Source: a bacterium (GTDB taxonomy: Bacteria > JAJRZV01). From it: a stretch of 13,675 bases of DNA. The notes beneath the pieces are model-generated. The model searched no databases and was not told the origin of the DNA. It saw only the letters and a list, made by a program, of their open reading frames with translations. A program made the position numbers and the translations under genes. Below are positions 3,076 to 13,020 of this stretch, piece after piece. The stretch covers positions 1 to 13,675 of the forward strand of contig JAJRZV010000001.1 of the NCBI GenBank assembly GCA_024275095.1, given 5' to 3'. How positions within the stretch are numbered: the first letter of the stretch is position 1; each line of letters opens with the position of its first letter.

Positions 3076-3984
3076 ATGGTTGGAAAATTTAAAGATTTTG
3101 TCCAGGTAAGCCGTTTTAAAATCCAGCTCGCCAGTCTCCCACACGCCACTCTCGGGGTCTTCATGGCTGTTTCAAAATTTGAGGAACTTGTAACGCCTCT
3201 CACGGGAGCCTATGTCATTCTTACCTTCCTTCTCATTACCTATTCGTGTCACATCAACTGTCTTTATGATGTGGATGTGGACCTCAAATATAAACGGTAT
3301 CTGGCAGAAGCCGTGCTGAGGCTCGGACGTCCTTTCATGTGGAAACTGATTGCTGCAGATACGCTCCTGGCCGGGTTGATTCTTCTCTATATCGCTTTTT
3401 CTGGAAGGTGGGTCACCGCGATACTGGGTGCTGCTGGCATGGTTCTGGCCTGGATTTACTCGAGTCCTCCCCTGAGGGTAAAAGCGAGGGGCGCGGTCAG
3501 TTTTATTCCGGTACTCGTGGGATTGTATTCTTTCCCCATACTGGGTGGGTGGTTCCTGTTTCGGGATGACCTTACGGTGGAAATTGTGCTTTTCACCCTC
3601 TTTTATGCAATGATGAACGAGGGAATCACTTTTGTTAACACGGCGGAGGATTACCGTGAAGACCTTGACGAAGGTATAACAACACTTGCACACGTGATAG
3701 GTATCAGAAACCTGCTTGTGCTTGCAGCTTTCCTCACGGTTTGTGGATCAACAGGCGCAACGGTTCTGTTGCTGAAACACTCTTATCACATGGACCGCTT
3801 TGTTTTTGCAGCTGTGGCAGTGCTTTCTATTTTTGTCAGCATCGCAATCGGCATAAGAATGCTCGGGGGTTCCCTCGCTCCTGATCCTGAGAAAGAGGCC
3901 AAGCTTCTGGGTCCCAAAATGGGGCCCTGGTTTATGGTCGTGAGGTACCCGTTGTTTCTGGGCGCTCTCCTCATGGTGGTATAA
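3076..3984 (+). CDS. UbiA-family membrane prenyltransferase (first of two)
   Basis: A 302-residue integral membrane protein of the UbiA superfamily, which attaches isoprenoid chains to acceptors such as quinone precursors, chlorophyllide, haem or glycerol-1-phosphate lipids. The first magnesium/diphosphate motif is NCLYDVDVD (Asn61, Asp65, Asp69), an NxxxDxxxD form in which the usual second-position Asp is Cys62. The second motif is Asp192-xxx-Asp196 (in EDYREDLDEG). YSSPPLRVKARG (128-139) is the typical loop between them. About eight or nine hydrophobic segments fit the fold. ATG at 3076 has AAGGGAG 6 bases upstream. The stop is 2 bases before the next UbiA-like start, so the two are co-transcribed. 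The acceptor cannot be deduced; no menaquinone, haem or isoprenoid synthesis gene lies alongside. Confidence 0.85.
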   Translation: MVGKFKDFVQVSRFKIQLASLPHATLGVFMAVSKFEELVTPLTGAYVILTFLLITYSCHINCLYDVDVDLKYKRYLAEAVLRLGRPFMWKLIAADTLLAGLILLYIAFSGRWVTAILGAAGMVLAWIYSSPPLRVKARGAVSFIPVLVGLYSFPILGGWFLFRDDLTVEIVLFTLFYAMMNEGITFVNTAEDYREDLDEGITTLAHVIGIRNLLVLAAFLTVCGSTGATVLLLKHSYHMDRFVFAAVAVLSIFVSIAIGIRMLGGSLAPDPEKEAKLLGPKMGPWFMVVRYPLFLGALLMVV

Positions 3985-3986
3985 GC

Positions 3987-5210
3987 GTGAAGAGGCTTCT
4001 TTATATTCTTGTGACCGTTTGTCTCTCTGCCGCAGCCTCGGCCGTGCTTTTGTACGCGGGTGTGGCTCCTGAACAGGCATTTCTTTTTCCACTGACCATT
4101 TCGCTTGCAGGAGTTCTTTCCTTTTCCCCGGGGTTAAAAAATACGGTGCTGATGGGTGTACCACTGGTGGTTTTGATTGCAGAAGGTGTGTTGAGCGCAT
4201 CGTTACGTCCCGATGAGTACACCTTCACCCTGGTGGCGTGGTCAGCGGTGATGGTACTGGCGGGTGTTTTCGAGAAAAAGGTTTTTCCTGCTTTTGTCGC
4301 CGGCGCGGCGGTGGTATGGGCCTTTTTGCTCGTTCCCGAACTGGGAGCGTGGATTCCTCCGGTGCTTACTGCGTTTATGCTTTATTTCTGGCTCGTTGAG
4401 GAAGGATGGTTCCGGGGCAGCATCCGTGTGTTTCCTTCGCTGCATTTTCCTGTTCTGGTAATGGCGGGCTGGTATTTTGCACGGCATGATTTACCTGTTG
4501 AAGCGTTAATACCTGCTCTTGCTTTTATGGCGGCATGGCATTACGCAGTGGCCATAAACGATATTTACGATAGAGAGATAGACGCTGTATCAAATCCACA
4601 CAGACCCCTTGTTTCGGGCCTGGCCTCTGAAAAGCAGTATCATGAAATGTACATGTCCTGTGCACTTCTGGCAGCGGTTCTGGGTGTTGCGGGAAAGGTT
4701 CCGGTGCACGTGTTGATTTTTATTTTTCTTGCGTACGTATACTCAACTCCTCCAGCGAGGCTGAAGAGGTTCCCGGTGGGAAGTGTTTTCGTGGCCGCGG
4801 GAAGCGTCATTGCATTTCATGCAGGTCTGGTGTCTTCTGGAGCGCGGGCTTTTACAGGAGAGCTTGTTCGAGTTCTCCTGGTGATGTTTCTCGCTTTTTC
4901 AGCAGGAATTGTGATCAAGGATCTGAAAGATGTGGAAGGAGATAAACGCGCGGGTGTGGCAACGCTTTTTACCACGCTGGGAGTGAAGAGAGGACTCGTG
5001 GTGGCGACCCTTCTTCTGGCCATAGCATTTTTTTCTCCTCTTTTTCTCATTTTTTCCCTGTATGACGTGGTAGTTTTTGCTGTTCTTTACGTAATAACAT
5101 GTGTGGTATTGTGGATGAGTCATCGTCCTTTTGCTGTTTTCCCCCTTTATTTCGTGGAATTTCTCTACGTGCTTTTGCGATACACCGGTTACATTTCTTA
5201 TGCCCGGTAA
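3987..5210 (+). CDS. UbiA-family prenyltransferase with extra N-terminal membrane region
   Basis: A 407-residue membrane protein. The C-terminal 260 residues are a standard UbiA domain: NDIYDREID at 191-199 (Asn191, Asp195, Asp199), YSTPPARLKRFP at 252-263, and Asp315-xxx-Asp319 in KDLKDVEGDKRAG. The first 140 or so residues add about six hydrophobic segments with no motif I recognise; they could be a degenerate half-copy or a separate membrane module. GTG at 3987 is used because the frame opens only 2 bases after the previous stop, implying coupling; the ribosome site is weak. UbiA proteins are usually near 290 residues, so the length is unusual. Substrate unknown. The pairing suggests successive or heteromeric prenyl transfer, but this is inference. 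Confidence 0.85.
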   Translation: MKRLLYILVTVCLSAAASAVLLYAGVAPEQAFLFPLTISLAGVLSFSPGLKNTVLMGVPLVVLIAEGVLSASLRPDEYTFTLVAWSAVMVLAGVFEKKVFPAFVAGAAVVWAFLLVPELGAWIPPVLTAFMLYFWLVEEGWFRGSIRVFPSLHFPVLVMAGWYFARHDLPVEALIPALAFMAAWHYAVAINDIYDREIDAVSNPHRPLVSGLASEKQYHEMYMSCALLAAVLGVAGKVPVHVLIFIFLAYVYSTPPARLKRFPVGSVFVAAGSVIAFHAGLVSSGARAFTGELVRVLLVMFLAFSAGIVIKDLKDVEGDKRAGVATLFTTLGVKRGLVVATLLLAIAFFSPLFLIFSLYDVVVFAVLYVITCVVLWMSHRPFAVFPLYFVEFLYVLLRYTGYISYAR

Positions 5211-8734: not shown

Positions 8735-9768
8735 TGCCTTCTCTTCCCTTTCATCCTTTGATAATCGTAGCCGGCATTCTCGTTGCAGGGGTTGTCTCCG
8801 GCGTATTGCTGGAGTGGCTGCTCAGAAGGTATGTGCTTCGTCTTGTGGAAAAAACGGAAGGGTTGTTTGACGACAGGGTGGCTCGAGCATTCCGTGGCAT
8901 TCTCTTCCTCTGGTGTGTGCTCGCTGCTGTGTCTCTGAGCCTTAAAATTTTTCCATTTCCCCCGGAGCTTGGGGGCACCTTTGAAAAGATAATCACCATC
9001 CTTTTTATTGTTTCCTTTACAGTTGTGGGTGCGAGGGTGGCCGGGGGACTTATTGAGACCTATGCGGGTCGTATGGCTGCTCCCCTTACGTCCACATCTA
9101 TTTTCAGAAACATTGCTTACACAGTGATTTACCTGCTGGGTCTCCTGATGGTTTTCCACGCCCTTGGCATATCCATCACCCCACTTATCACAGCCATGGG
9201 CGTGGGTGGGCTGGCCGTGGCACTCGCGCTGCAGGAGACACTTTCCAACCTTTTTGCGGGATTGCACATTATCGCCTCACGTCAGGTGAGGGTGGGTGAT
9301 TACGTGAAGCTGGATACAGGTGAAGAGGGCTACGTGGTGGATATTACCTGGCGCAACACCACGATCCGGGCCTTGCCGAACAATCTTATCATCGTGCCCA
9401 ACTCGCGCATGGCCTCGGCAGTGGTTCTCAATTACAACCTCCCACAGCGGGAGATGTCTGTGATTGTTCAGGTGGGGGTATCCTATGATAGTGATCTGGA
9501 GAAGGTGGAGAAGGTCACTATTGAAGTGGCCACGGATGTGATGAGAGAAGTACCCGGAGGTGTGCCAGAATTTCAGCCGTTTATTCGTTATCATACTTTT
9601 GGAGATTCGAGCATCAATTTCAGTGTGATATTGAGAGCCAAGGAATTTGTGGACCAGTACCTCATCAAGCACGAATTTATCAAGCGGCTTCACGCCCGGT
9701 ACAGGGAAGAAGGGATAGAGATTCCCTTCCCCATCAGGACTGTTCACATGAAAAATCCCCCTTCCTGA
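8734..9768 (+). CDS. MscS-family mechanosensitive channel
   Basis: A 344-residue inner-membrane protein with about four to five membrane segments (near 8-28, 54-72, 85-106, 125-147 and the pore helix). The pore-lining helix ITAMGVGGLAVALALQETLSNLFAG (about 152-176) has the Gly/Ala packing of MscS TM3. It is followed by the beta domain with VRVGDYV (185-191), VVDITWRNTTIR (201-212) and the NSRMA loop, and then the C-terminal alpha/beta domain. It would release solutes on hypo-osmotic shock. Its ATG overlaps the gcvH stop by one base, so the two are probably co-transcribed. Its 3' end overlaps the convergent tRNA nucleotidyltransferase gene by 35 bases. Confidence 0.95.
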   Translation: MPSLPFHPLIIVAGILVAGVVSGVLLEWLLRRYVLRLVEKTEGLFDDRVARAFRGILFLWCVLAAVSLSLKIFPFPPELGGTFEKIITILFIVSFTVVGARVAGGLIETYAGRMAAPLTSTSIFRNIAYTVIYLLGLLMVFHALGISITPLITAMGVGGLAVALALQETLSNLFAGLHIIASRQVRVGDYVKLDTGEEGYVVDITWRNTTIRALPNNLIIVPNSRMASAVVLNYNLPQREMSVIVQVGVSYDSDLEKVEKVTIEVATDVMREVPGGVPEFQPFIRYHTFGDSSINFSVILRAKEFVDQYLIKHEFIKRLHARYREEGIEIPFPIRTVHMKNPPS

Positions 9769-11110
9769 ATTTTTCATACTCTTCTTTCAGCACCTGGACG
9801 GCTTTTTCTTTGTTATCAGGTGAAAGAACGCCGTCCACAACCATTTCTTCCAGGCGCTTTTTTAAAAATCCCACCGCCGGACCGGGTTGAATGTTCAGTA
9901 TCTCCATGATTTCGTATCCGTTAAGTGGTGACTTCATTTCACCGGCACTTGTCTCTTCCAGGAGTTTTTCAACACGATGCTTGAGTTCGCTCAGTGCCTG
10001 GATCGATTCGGCTTTTGCTAAATCCGAACGCGAGATGATGTCTGCTTCTACCAGACAGTAGAGGTCCTCGCGGAAACCTTCCGTACGCTTGATAAAGCGC
10101 CTTACAGCCCTGTCTGTCCATTCGGGCGTGTAAATAAGCATGTGGTGACGGATCAGTGATTCCACAGTTTTTCTCGTATTTCGTGGAAATCCCCAGCGCA
10201 AAAGCGCCCTTGCCGCCAGCTTTGCACTGATGTGTTCGTGGCCTGGAAAAGAAAGCCGCCTTTCTTTTTTTACGGCAGCATGTGGTTTGCCAGCATCGTG
10301 AAAGAGAGCGGCTGCTCTCAAGGCCAGCTTTGGTGGTACGAGCCCTGTTACCCGTGCAGCGTGAGAAAAAACGTTTTCGAAGTGATAGGGAGTTTGCTGG
10401 TCGAAATCCACACTCGGAAGCAGTTCAGGAAGTACGTATTCTACGAGCCGGGCTTTTTTTAGAGCCAATAGCACAGGATGCACCCGGGGGGAGAGAAGAA
10501 TTTTTCTCATTTCTTCGCCGATACGCTCGGATCGCAGCGTCCTCAACCACCCCTTCATACGAAGGGCAGCAGCAGCCACGTCGTGATGGGGTGAAATGTC
10601 CAGTTCCGTGGAAATGCGCACCATGCGCACGATGCGTCCGGGATCTTCGTAAAAGGTTTTTTCAGGTATGTCACAGGTTTTACATATGCCGGAGAATAAA
10701 TCTTTGATCCCGCCCAGGGGGTCTTCTGCGTCAAACTCTGGAAGCGTGATGTAAAAGGCATTTACGGTGAAGTCTCTGCAACGTGCATCTTCTTCAAGTG
10801 TGGGACCTTTTGATTCCACGAGATCGACAAAGTATTTACCATGTTTAAACCTCAGTACTTCCTTGTTCCGAATGGTCTGCGGTTCTCCAAGGATGCGGGT
10901 AAGGGTCCGTGCAAGCCGATGGCGTGAATGCTCATCGAGCGTTAGCACGTCAATATCTTCTGGTACTTTTTTACCGGTGAGAAGAAATATAGAGAATCCT
11001 CCAACGATATATGCTTTGACACCGGTGGCACGGACACTTTCCAGAAGAATGTCGACGCATTCACGCAACTGCTGGGGGAGGGTTTCAAGTTTTAAGGGAG
11101 GTCCAGACAT
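9734..11110 (-). CDS. tRNA nucleotidyltransferase / poly(A) polymerase family with HD domain
   Basis: A 458-residue protein with the class II nucleotidyltransferase head followed by an HD domain, as in CCA-adding enzymes. The catalytic acidic pair is Asp52 and Asp54 in EDIDVLT after YIVGG (35-38). CRDFTVNAF (111-119) matches RRDFTINA, with EDPGRIVRMVR (155-165) after it. The HD segment is ALFHDAGK (268-275), and PLNGYEIMEILNIQPG (395-410) is the usual tail motif. The segment after GG is SIFLLTG in place of the usual VRDxLLG, so a normally conserved Arg-Asp is absent. ATG 11110 is preferred: AGGT at 11117-11120 lies 6 bases upstream, whereas the longer ATG at 11155 has no ribosome site and adds unconserved residues. 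It overlaps the queE end by 19 bases. CCA, A-adding or other nucleotidyl transfer cannot be told apart here. Confidence 0.88.
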   Translation of the reverse strand: MSGPPLKLETLPQQLRECVDILLESVRATGVKAYIVGGFSIFLLTGKKVPEDIDVLTLDEHSRHRLARTLTRILGEPQTIRNKEVLRFKHGKYFVDLVESKGPTLEEDARCRDFTVNAFYITLPEFDAEDPLGGIKDLFSGICKTCDIPEKTFYEDPGRIVRMVRISTELDISPHHDVAAAALRMKGWLRTLRSERIGEEMRKILLSPRVHPVLLALKKARLVEYVLPELLPSVDFDQQTPYHFENVFSHAARVTGLVPPKLALRAAALFHDAGKPHAAVKKERRLSFPGHEHISAKLAARALLRWGFPRNTRKTVESLIRHHMLIYTPEWTDRAVRRFIKRTEGFREDLYCLVEADIISRSDLAKAESIQALSELKHRVEKLLEETSAGEMKSPLNGYEIMEILNIQPGPAVGFLKKRLEEMVVDGVLSPDNKEKAVQVLKEEYEKFRKGDFSCEQS

Positions 11111-11814
11111 TTGTGTACCTGTGGAATCACGCGTACGTGTGTTAAGTGTTCGCATGCAATTCGGTAAAAACTCATCAGCAAGTCATAAGGTATTTTTTCA
11201 ACAGGTTGAATAAAAAAAGGCACCTGTTCACCGTGAATGCGTGCCGTGAGCTCTGCCGCGCGTTTGACCTCTTCTGGTTCTTCCTGCCCGGAGACAACTG
11301 CTTTAACAGAGAGACTTGAGGACGAGACATTAATCAGTGCCTCCTGAAAAATGTCCCAGCCGTTCCGAATCCCTGAGGAACGGGGGAATTTTACATCGAG
11401 GGAGACGTGGACGTTGGCGTCTGATATTTCTTTCAGCACTGATGGATACACCCCCGCTGTTTCAAGAACCACAGGTGCATCGGCTAATGCGACAAGGCCC
11501 TTCAAAAATTCTTTCTGGTAAGTGGGCTCTCCGCCGGTAATGCACATACGCGAGAACGGTGCATGTTCTGTCAGGGATTTGACAGCGTCTTTGACGAATT
11601 CGACCGTTACAGGGTTGGAAAACAATTTTGTTGTCATTTCAGGAAAGAGAATTTTTCCCTGCCGGCGAGGTGTAAGACCTTCAGGCGTGTCGCAATACCT
11701 GCACCTCAGCGGACAACCACCCATGCGCACGAAAGCATGGACTTCTCCAACGAACAGGCCCTCACCCTGGACAGAGAGAAATATTTCATGGACAAATCCC
11801 TTCAGGAAACCCAT
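11092..11814 (-). CDS. queE: 7-carboxy-7-deazaguanine synthase QueE (radical SAM)
   Basis: A 240-residue radical SAM enzyme that converts 6-carboxytetrahydropterin to 7-carboxy-7-deazaguanine in the preQ0/queuosine pathway. EIFLSVQGEG (10-19) is the QueE hallmark. The 4Fe-4S cluster cysteines are Cys34, Cys38 and Cys41 in GGCPLRCRYCDT, the classical CX3CX2C form. CITGGEPT is the SAM-binding GGEP motif, and the C-terminal IPQVHKCLDLP matches the family tail. The ATG overlaps the DUF366 stop by 13 bases with no strong ribosome site, so translation is probably coupled. It works directly before QueC, encoded two genes upstream in the same operon. Confidence 0.95.
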   Translation of the reverse strand: MGFLKGFVHEIFLSVQGEGLFVGEVHAFVRMGGCPLRCRYCDTPEGLTPRRQGKILFPEMTTKLFSNPVTVEFVKDAVKSLTEHAPFSRMCITGGEPTYQKEFLKGLVALADAPVVLETAGVYPSVLKEISDANVHVSLDVKFPRSSGIRNGWDIFQEALINVSSSSLSVKAVVSGQEEPEEVKRAAELTARIHGEQVPFFIQPVEKIPYDLLMSFYRIACEHLTHVRVIPQVHKCLDLP

Positions 11815-12350
11815 CGTACTTTGGTGCAGGCTTCAACGGCACTGACATATTCCCTGCAGAAGCGTTGTGCAATTTTATCTGCAAGTTGGCGTGGCTCTGG
11901 ACGAGCAGGCAGCGTGGCTGCGGTCACAGGAGCACCTTTTGCATCAATGTTCAGTCCCAGATGTATAAGTCCTGACACGGGTGAGACAGTGGCAATGGAT
12001 ACAGAAAGCTTGCCTTCATTTACAAAAAGGTCGTCACCATCGCGGTGAAGCCCCGGCATGAAGGATTGGAGGATTTCTGCTGTTATGGCGACAAGCAGAC
12101 GCTGGGCTAGTACTGCCTCGAGTATGGATACTCTAAAAATTTCCACAATAAAGTGGAGCATTTTGCGCGCACGAATGATGTGTCCTTTTTCAATGTCTTC
12201 TACATCTACCATGCGTGCAGGTTCCACATCGCAGCTACCCATGAATGCAATGATCGCATCACCTTGAATCCCGGTATTGTGGCGTATCCAGTGGCTGCTG
12301 AGCTGGGAACCGTCGTAGTGGATGTGCCTGTTAATCCATTCGTACTTCAC
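11802..12350 (-). CDS. DUF366 family protein, uncharacterised, in the preQ0 operon
   Basis: A 182-residue soluble protein matching DUF366, known mainly from archaea and some thermophilic bacteria. Recognisable segments are YDGSQL (12-17), MVDVEDIEKG (47-56), MLHFIVEIF (64-72), GDDLF (105-109), KLSVSIAT (114-121) and HLGLNI (130-135). I know of no established function. The order GDDLF, GKLSVSIA, HLGLNI recalls the Lys and GxN strands of biotin/lipoate protein ligases (GRKxxG then xGxN), a resemblance by eye only. Start choice: GTG at 12348-12350 is 6 bases after GGGAGG, while the adjacent in-frame TTG at 12351-12353 is only 3 bases after it. It overlaps queC by 20 bases and queE by 13, so it is fully embedded in the deazaguanine unit. 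Confidence 0.85.
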   Translation of the reverse strand: MKYEWINRHIHYDGSQLSSHWIRHNTGIQGDAIIAFMGSCDVEPARMVDVEDIEKGHIIRARKMLHFIVEIFRVSILEAVLAQRLLVAITAEILQSFMPGLHRDGDDLFVNEGKLSVSIATVSPVSGLIHLGLNIDAKGAPVTAATLPARPEPRQLADKIAQRFCREYVSAVEACTKVRWVS

Positions 12351-13020
12351 CAAACGCCTCCCTGAGCGCTTCTGTCAGTCCCGCATCCTGGAATCCCCTG
12401 ATAAAGCGGGTGCAGGACTCACATCGGAAACATGGAAAAATACCGTTACGATAGCAGAACCAGAGGTGCTGAAGGGGAATTTTTCTTTTTACAGCTTCTG
12501 AAGCGATGTCTTTTTTTCTCATGTGAAGCAAAGGTGTCCACAGTGCAACCCGACCTGCGGTGCCAAAGTAAAGCGTGCGAGAAAGTGCCTCCACAAAACT
12601 CGGCGAGTTGTCGGGAAAGGTTTCGCCTTCTTCAGCGTTGAACCCGGCTGCTACAGCGCCACCCCCGCGTGATTCCACGAAGGCTGCGGCTACGGAGACA
12701 AACACCAGGTTTCGGGCAGGTACCCATACAGCCTGTGCTGTTTGTTCCGGATGCCAACGCTTTTCAATGTCAGGTATTTCTGAAGGACCGACAAGGGCTG
12801 AAGCCTGACTCCATTCCTTGAGCCAGGGAAGTTCTATGGTGAGGTGTTCTACGTTGAAATGAGATGCCAGAAGTGATGCTTTCTCCAGCTCCCTGCGCGC
12901 TTTTTGACCGTAGTCCACAGTGAGAGCCCATACATTGTCAAACTCCTCTATTGCACGTGAGAGCACGACTGCAGAGTCCAGACCACTGGATAAAAGTACA
13001 ACTGCTACATGATGGGGCAT
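12331..13020 (-). CDS. queC: 7-cyano-7-deazaguanine (preQ0) synthase QueC, divergent
   Basis: A 229-residue PP-loop ATPase that makes preQ0 from 7-carboxy-7-deazaguanine, ammonia and ATP. The PP-loop is SSGLDS at 11-16, where QueC normally has SGGLDS. The central VWVPARNLVFVSVAAA (99-113) is a strong QueC signature. The zinc-binding cysteines are Cys189, Cys197, Cys200 and Cys203 in the usual C-x7-C-x2-C-x2-C array. The segment following GFNAEEGETF reads PDNS, where most QueC have a YPDCR-like substrate loop. Length is normal. GGAGG lies 6 bases before the ATG. With queE two genes downstream, the pathway assignment is good. The two substitutions leave room for a paralogue with altered specificity. 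Confidence 0.87.
   Translation of the reverse strand: MPHHVAVVLLSSGLDSAVVLSRAIEEFDNVWALTVDYGQKARRELEKASLLASHFNVEHLTIELPWLKEWSQASALVGPSEIPDIEKRWHPEQTAQAVWVPARNLVFVSVAAAFVESRGGGAVAAGFNAEEGETFPDNSPSFVEALSRTLYFGTAGRVALWTPLLHMRKKDIASEAVKRKIPLQHLWFCYRNGIFPCFRCESCTRFIRGFQDAGLTEALREAFGEVRMD
12357..12362 (-). promoter_or_regulatory. Ribosome binding site deciding the DUF366 start
   Basis: GGGAGG on the minus strand lies inside the end of queC, 6 bases from GTG 12350 but only 3 from TTG 12353, favouring GTG. Confidence 0.7.

Follow-up and report, generated by a model that had tools for sequence, protein, structure and literature searches.

DUF366, encoded between queC and queE, accompanies a variant QueC: a proposed enzyme at the last step of preQ0 synthesis

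As the precursor of widespread tRNA and DNA modifications, preQ0 is formed by QueC, the last enzyme of the pathway, from the carboxylate CDG made by QueE, and the amide ADG is a known intermediate of this reaction. On balance we favour the view that DUF366, encoded between queC and queE, is an enzyme dedicated to making preQ0 that acts at the QueC step (CDG to preQ0), and that a variant QueC with an altered substrate motif would depend on it. This view draws on gene order, co-occurrence, the variant QueC clade, the modelled fold of DUF366, its invariant residues and an otherwise intact-looking pathway. Conversion of an acid to a nitrile is rare in enzymology, and a second protein at this step would be chemically interesting. 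A literature search for DUF366, PF04017 and COG2029 found no paper, and none of DUF366, PF04017 and FPDN occurs in the main text of a recent QueC study (PMC13329287).

The analysed stretch (the window) is a contig of 13,675 nt. The DUF366 gene lies at 11802-12350 on the minus strand and encodes 182 aa from a GTG at 12350, with a TTG at 12353 as an alternative start and the stop codon at 11802-11804. Its product matched Pfam PF04017 over residues 4-180 (E 4e-57), scoring 193.1 bits against a gathering cut-off of 29.9 and covering positions 3-184 of the 184 in the profile. On the same strand, queC (12331-13020) matched PF06508 (E 4.9e-52, 176.9 bits) and TIGR00364 (171.6 bits, cut-off 150.3), and reached 246.6 bits with a profile of the variant QueC; the substrate motif at 12607-12618 (-) reads FPDN where the canonical one is YPDC. 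The queE gene (11092-11814, minus strand) encodes a radical SAM protein (PF04055, E 2.3e-13), a 7-carboxy-7-deazaguanine synthase for which the QueE models of NCBIfam scored best, yet under their clade-specific cut-offs. DUF366 overlaps queC by 20 nt (12331-12350, minus strand) and queE by 13 nt (11802-11814, minus strand); the coordinates together with the PF04017 match confirm the original prediction that it is embedded between the two. A CCA-adding enzyme/HD gene (9734-11155, minus strand) follows queE, with an overlap of 64 nt in the longest frame, and may be co-transcribed with it. Further away on the plus strand, two adjacent UbiA-type prenyltransferase genes (3076-3984 and 3987-5210) are separated by 2 nt, and the second encodes an additional membrane extension at the N terminus. 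The window gave no matches in Rfam and tRNA scans.

A scan of one genome per species, about 85,000 species in all, returned 184 DUF366 relatives, of which the closest 80 were fetched; with other loci these made up a set of 85, chosen for their resemblance to the window. Of the 85 loci, 69 carried one or more of queC, queD and queE, and 33 had the order queD-queC-DUF366-queE. At 26, mostly in Firmicutes, folE adjoined queE; the arrangement queD-queC-DUF366-queE-folE occurs in Firmicutes. Since the order queC-DUF366-queE recurred across many phyla and the queC/DUF366 junction was commonly overlapping (31/55 loci), this arrangement goes beyond chance. No conserved partner genes other than preQ0 genes were found at the surveyed loci. 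Three long frames that suggested DUF366-QueC/QueE fusions were discounted as further evidence, since they resemble the open frames of high-GC DNA and not true domains. Four divergent members of the family were unlinked, and some otherwise invariant residues were lost in them. A plasmid search for DUF366 gave no match.

The neighbourhood survey was repeated on an unselected sample of 386 bacterial genomes. DUF366 was found in 30, and in 23 of these queC, queD or queE lay within 1.5 kb. QueC was present in 29 of the 30 DUF366 genomes compared with 209 of the 356 others (p = 7e-6). Among 74 DUF366 genomes, QueC was clearly present in 73 and QueD in 71. The exception for QueC was G190, which has queD and DUF366 and in which no queC or queE was found; its locus (contig 56, 59371-60467), where the SPVS of DUF366 is changed to TLVS, resembles a decaying operon.

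DUF366 was also encoded on phage contigs, with queD, folE2, queE and queC on two of them, with folE2 on a third, and with folE, queD, queE, variant queC and a DpdA-like transglycosylase on a fourth (L137). The cluster of L137 and of L140 (IMGVR_UViG_3300009529_000017) is, from its gene content, likely a 7-deazaguanine DNA modification cluster. In the phage-contig stretches that were read no QueF was seen, and the clusters therefore point to a role of DUF366 in preQ0 formation or in the use of preQ0 in DNA, not in the tail steps of tRNA modification. Archaea use preQ0 for archaeosine, and the presence of DUF366 in M. jannaschii, M. acetivorans and P. horikoshii agrees with a role in preQ0 formation or use. 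The neighbourhoods, the co-occurrence with QueC and the phage clusters thus support the original prediction of a function in the pathway of the neighbouring genes; the contrary outcome that it had named, a gene mostly away from deazaguanine genes, does not fit with linkage in 23 of 30 genomes. DUF366 almost certainly belongs to the deazaguanine/preQ0 pathway. The contig of L137 and L140 also encodes an extra radical SAM protein. The sole GenBank phage match for DUF366, Microcystis phage MaAM05 (MW495066.1, 274 kb), carries glyS, secDF, fliM, fabI and engB and looks bacterial-chromosomal, not phage.

The original prediction had noted that QueD and GTP cyclohydrolase are missing from the window and had suggested that DUF366 could stand in for one of them. 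The absence is true of the window because it is only a 13.7 kb contig; both enzymes are encoded elsewhere in the same genome, which refutes the substitution. Genomes with DUF366 do not lack queD (71/74), and queD and folE share the Firmicutes operon with it, so that replacement of either enzyme by DUF366 is practically ruled out. The genome of the window encodes FolE, QueD, QueF and queA-tgt; QueF looks intact, with its Cys and Asp region, and the variant is the sole strong QueC. Given intact-looking QueF, Tgt and QueA and the rest of the pathway, this genome should make preQ0 and queuosine using the variant QueC.

DUF366 might instead replace QueF as preQ0 reductase, since QueF was found in 9 of 29 DUF366-positive genomes with QueC against 169 of 209 DUF366-negative ones (p = 1e-7). 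However, nine variant-QueC genomes, including that of the window, carry both DUF366 and QueF, and we know of no need for preQ1 in the phages and archaea that have DUF366; this replacement is highly improbable. A gene resembling the D component of 2-hydroxyglutaryl-CoA dehydratase follows queE at 13 loci (PF06050, E 1.8e-27 at L084). Six of the genomes with this gene were examined for QueF and all six lack it; the product of the gene is a possible alternative preQ0 nitrile reductase.

The partner that differs in DUF366 genomes is QueC. Beside DUF366, QueC has GFNxEEAxTFPDNS where the canonical enzyme has DxSGYPDCR. Over the 386 genomes the variant-QueC profile was bimodal, with 22 genomes at 233-329 bits and the rest at 173 or below; FPDN or FADN was found in three of this lower group as well, giving 25 variant-QueC genomes by motif. 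The profile was built partly from sampled genomes, but 64 separately fetched QueC from DUF366-negative genomes bear out both the gap and the residue table. The Asn of FPDN was present in 72 of 72 FPDN-type QueC, and Cys occupied this site in 62 of the 64 from DUF366-negative genomes. DUF366 was present in all 25 variant-QueC genomes compared with 4 of 213 with another QueC, and none of the 386 genomes had the variant but no DUF366. In three genomes the two genes co-occur on different contigs, though unlinked.

In a QueC tree built without the motif columns, a branch with SH-aLRT support of 99 set the variant apart; by this tree the variant is one clade and so of a single origin. Fisher's p of 5e-30 for the pairing of variant QueC with DUF366 therefore does not count independent events. 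The correlation, as read from the tree, is one ancient association without visible DUF366 loss across a deep clade of about twenty families, and it rests on that one transition and on the absence of loss.

Adjoining queE, DUF366 could also act upstream with QueE or QueD on 6-carboxytetrahydropterin, a substrate that the original prediction had considered. QueE was taken as a control. The QueE class of the DUF366 operons also occurred in 21 DUF366-negative genomes, and it was missing from 11 genomes with DUF366 and QueC, which have another class. DUF366 tracks the variant QueC, not QueE, and with QueC as the altered partner an upstream role is very unlikely. Tree distances (DUF366-QueC 0.82, DUF366-QueE 0.83, QueC-QueE 0.88) singled out no partner.

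Within the YPDC motif of canonical QueC, Tyr stacks against the base, and Asp recognises the Watson-Crick edge of that base (PMC13279940); E. coli QueC is inactive as Y131A and partly active as Y131F (PMC13329287). Compared with the canonical enzyme (Biochem J 2026, PMC13329287), the variant has F for Y and N for C of YPDC with PD retained, Ser, Thr or Gly for the following Arg, E for an invariant D, and Ala or Ser, never His, for the His/Thr of YxQxH; it is also always accompanied by DUF366. It keeps SGGxDS (SSGLDS in the window), the VPxRN motif with its invariant R and N, the four invariant zinc cysteines of C-x(n)-CxxCxxC, and the tyrosine near the zinc site that is essential in E. coli. 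The variant therefore retains the look of a deazaguanine enzyme that uses ATP, apparently with an altered pocket. With these elements it may perform both half-reactions alone, and the partial activity of Y131F counts against a need for DUF366.

The structure model of DUF366 from a single sequence was poor (pLDDT 47), while that from the 85-sequence alignment reached 96.5. The latter matched 2ddz of Pyrococcus horikoshii with Z 28.1, biotin protein ligase with Z 13.3 (rmsd 3.1, 158 aligned) and LipB with Z 12.4, which gives DUF366, as modelled, the fold of biotin/lipoate ligases and octanoyltransferases. The 2ddz protein belongs to the same family over its full length (E 7.6e-35, 42% identity in the structural alignment). 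It was deposited without an assigned function, whereas for the DUF366 of the window genomics now suggests a pathway and a partner; the family is conserved and has had a crystal structure since 2007. Against biotin protein ligase, LplA and LipB, identity was about 11%; a lysine after an x-D motif and a G-x-N strand seem to have counterparts in DUF366, but the cysteine of the LipB PCG motif is absent by inspection. The adenylate loop of biotin/lipoate ligases (GRGRxG or RRxGGG) was absent from the 85-sequence alignment, which counts against the proposed enzymatic role.

In a profile search of PDB sequences, the next match after 2ddz was the Aquifex biotin ligase, at a non-significant E of 0.17. 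In this weak alignment RxGDDLYxxxKLSVSI of DUF366 lay opposite the KWPND...K region and GLN opposite GIN, and the invariant K114 faced the catalytic lysine that follows the PND turn. Profile matches to E. coli BirA and LipB, for which approximate query sequences were used, were not significant, and kinship to the ligases thus rests on the fold. D49, E70, Q83, R103, K114, S118, S126, H130 and N134 were invariant in 119 relatives. R103 opens the motif R103-x-G-D-D107 (12030-12044, minus strand), and the next four of them fall with N134 in K114-LSVSIATVSPVSGLIHLGL-N134 (11949-12011, minus strand), the stretch that aligns weakly with the catalytic-lysine and GINV region of biotin ligase. This invariance speaks for catalysis by DUF366. 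DUF366 might instead be a subunit that supports or stabilises the variant QueC without catalysis of its own, or might channel CDG from QueE to QueC. Such a role would account for the strict co-occurrence and the overlapping genes; given that the fold is that of enzymes and that so many of its polar residues are invariant, and with DUF366 also occurring beside canonical QueC, it is unlikely.

The substrate, the reaction and any contact between the proteins are inferred from these observations. In the enzymes that share the fold of DUF366, a conserved lysine is the site at which a carboxylic acid is processed, and the carboxylate CDG is the proposed substrate. The most likely role would be one half-reaction of the QueC step, preferably CDG to ADG, or the delivery of activated CDG to QueC; otherwise DUF366 might serve as an essential partner. 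DUF366 is kept alongside canonical QueC in Heliorestis and Carboxydocella, which counts against this proposal. With intact motifs it also accompanies canonical-like QueC at four loci, one of them on a phage contig. Such pairs would be expected if its product, for example ADG, were usable by canonical QueC, and ADG would fit as a product shared with both types. Because DUF366 is intact with both QueC types and the variant is never seen without it, DUF366 would, most simply, supply what canonical QueC does for itself, leaving QueC free to drift. In a more specific and tentative form, DUF366 would convert CDG to the amide ADG, and dehydration of the amide to the nitrile would be all that is left to the FPDN-type QueC. 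Such a two-enzyme preQ0 synthase, possible though doubtful, would split a reaction pair that canonical QueC performs alone, in bacteria, phages and perhaps the archaea with DUF366.

The acyl-transfer fold would also suit an enzyme that passes the acyl group of CDG to a different acceptor, such as a protein lysine or a small molecule, either LipB-like or resembling the deazaguanylation by the QueC family. Protein deazaguanylation is established for Cap9, as cited in PMC13279940, and in QatB-QatC and CdnD-Cap9 a divergent QueC-family enzyme is likewise encoded with a partner protein. QatB and CdnD, however, serve as substrates, with an N-terminal glycine as the shown or proposed site of modification, whereas DUF366 has no such glycine and stands in a preQ0 context. 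Only preQ0 genes are conserved as its partners, and transfer to another acceptor would not explain why DUF366 goes with the variant QueC; such a transfer is quite unlikely. Deazaguanylation of DUF366 itself was rejected, with glycine at residue 2 in 1 of 85 sequences by automatic start choice.

The variant makes up about one in ten bacterial QueC genes of the broad sample (25/238), and the annotation of these as stand-alone preQ0 synthases needs checking. In four further QueC sequences PDTT replaces PDCR; two of these are in DUF366-negative genomes and two in genomes with a divergent DUF366.
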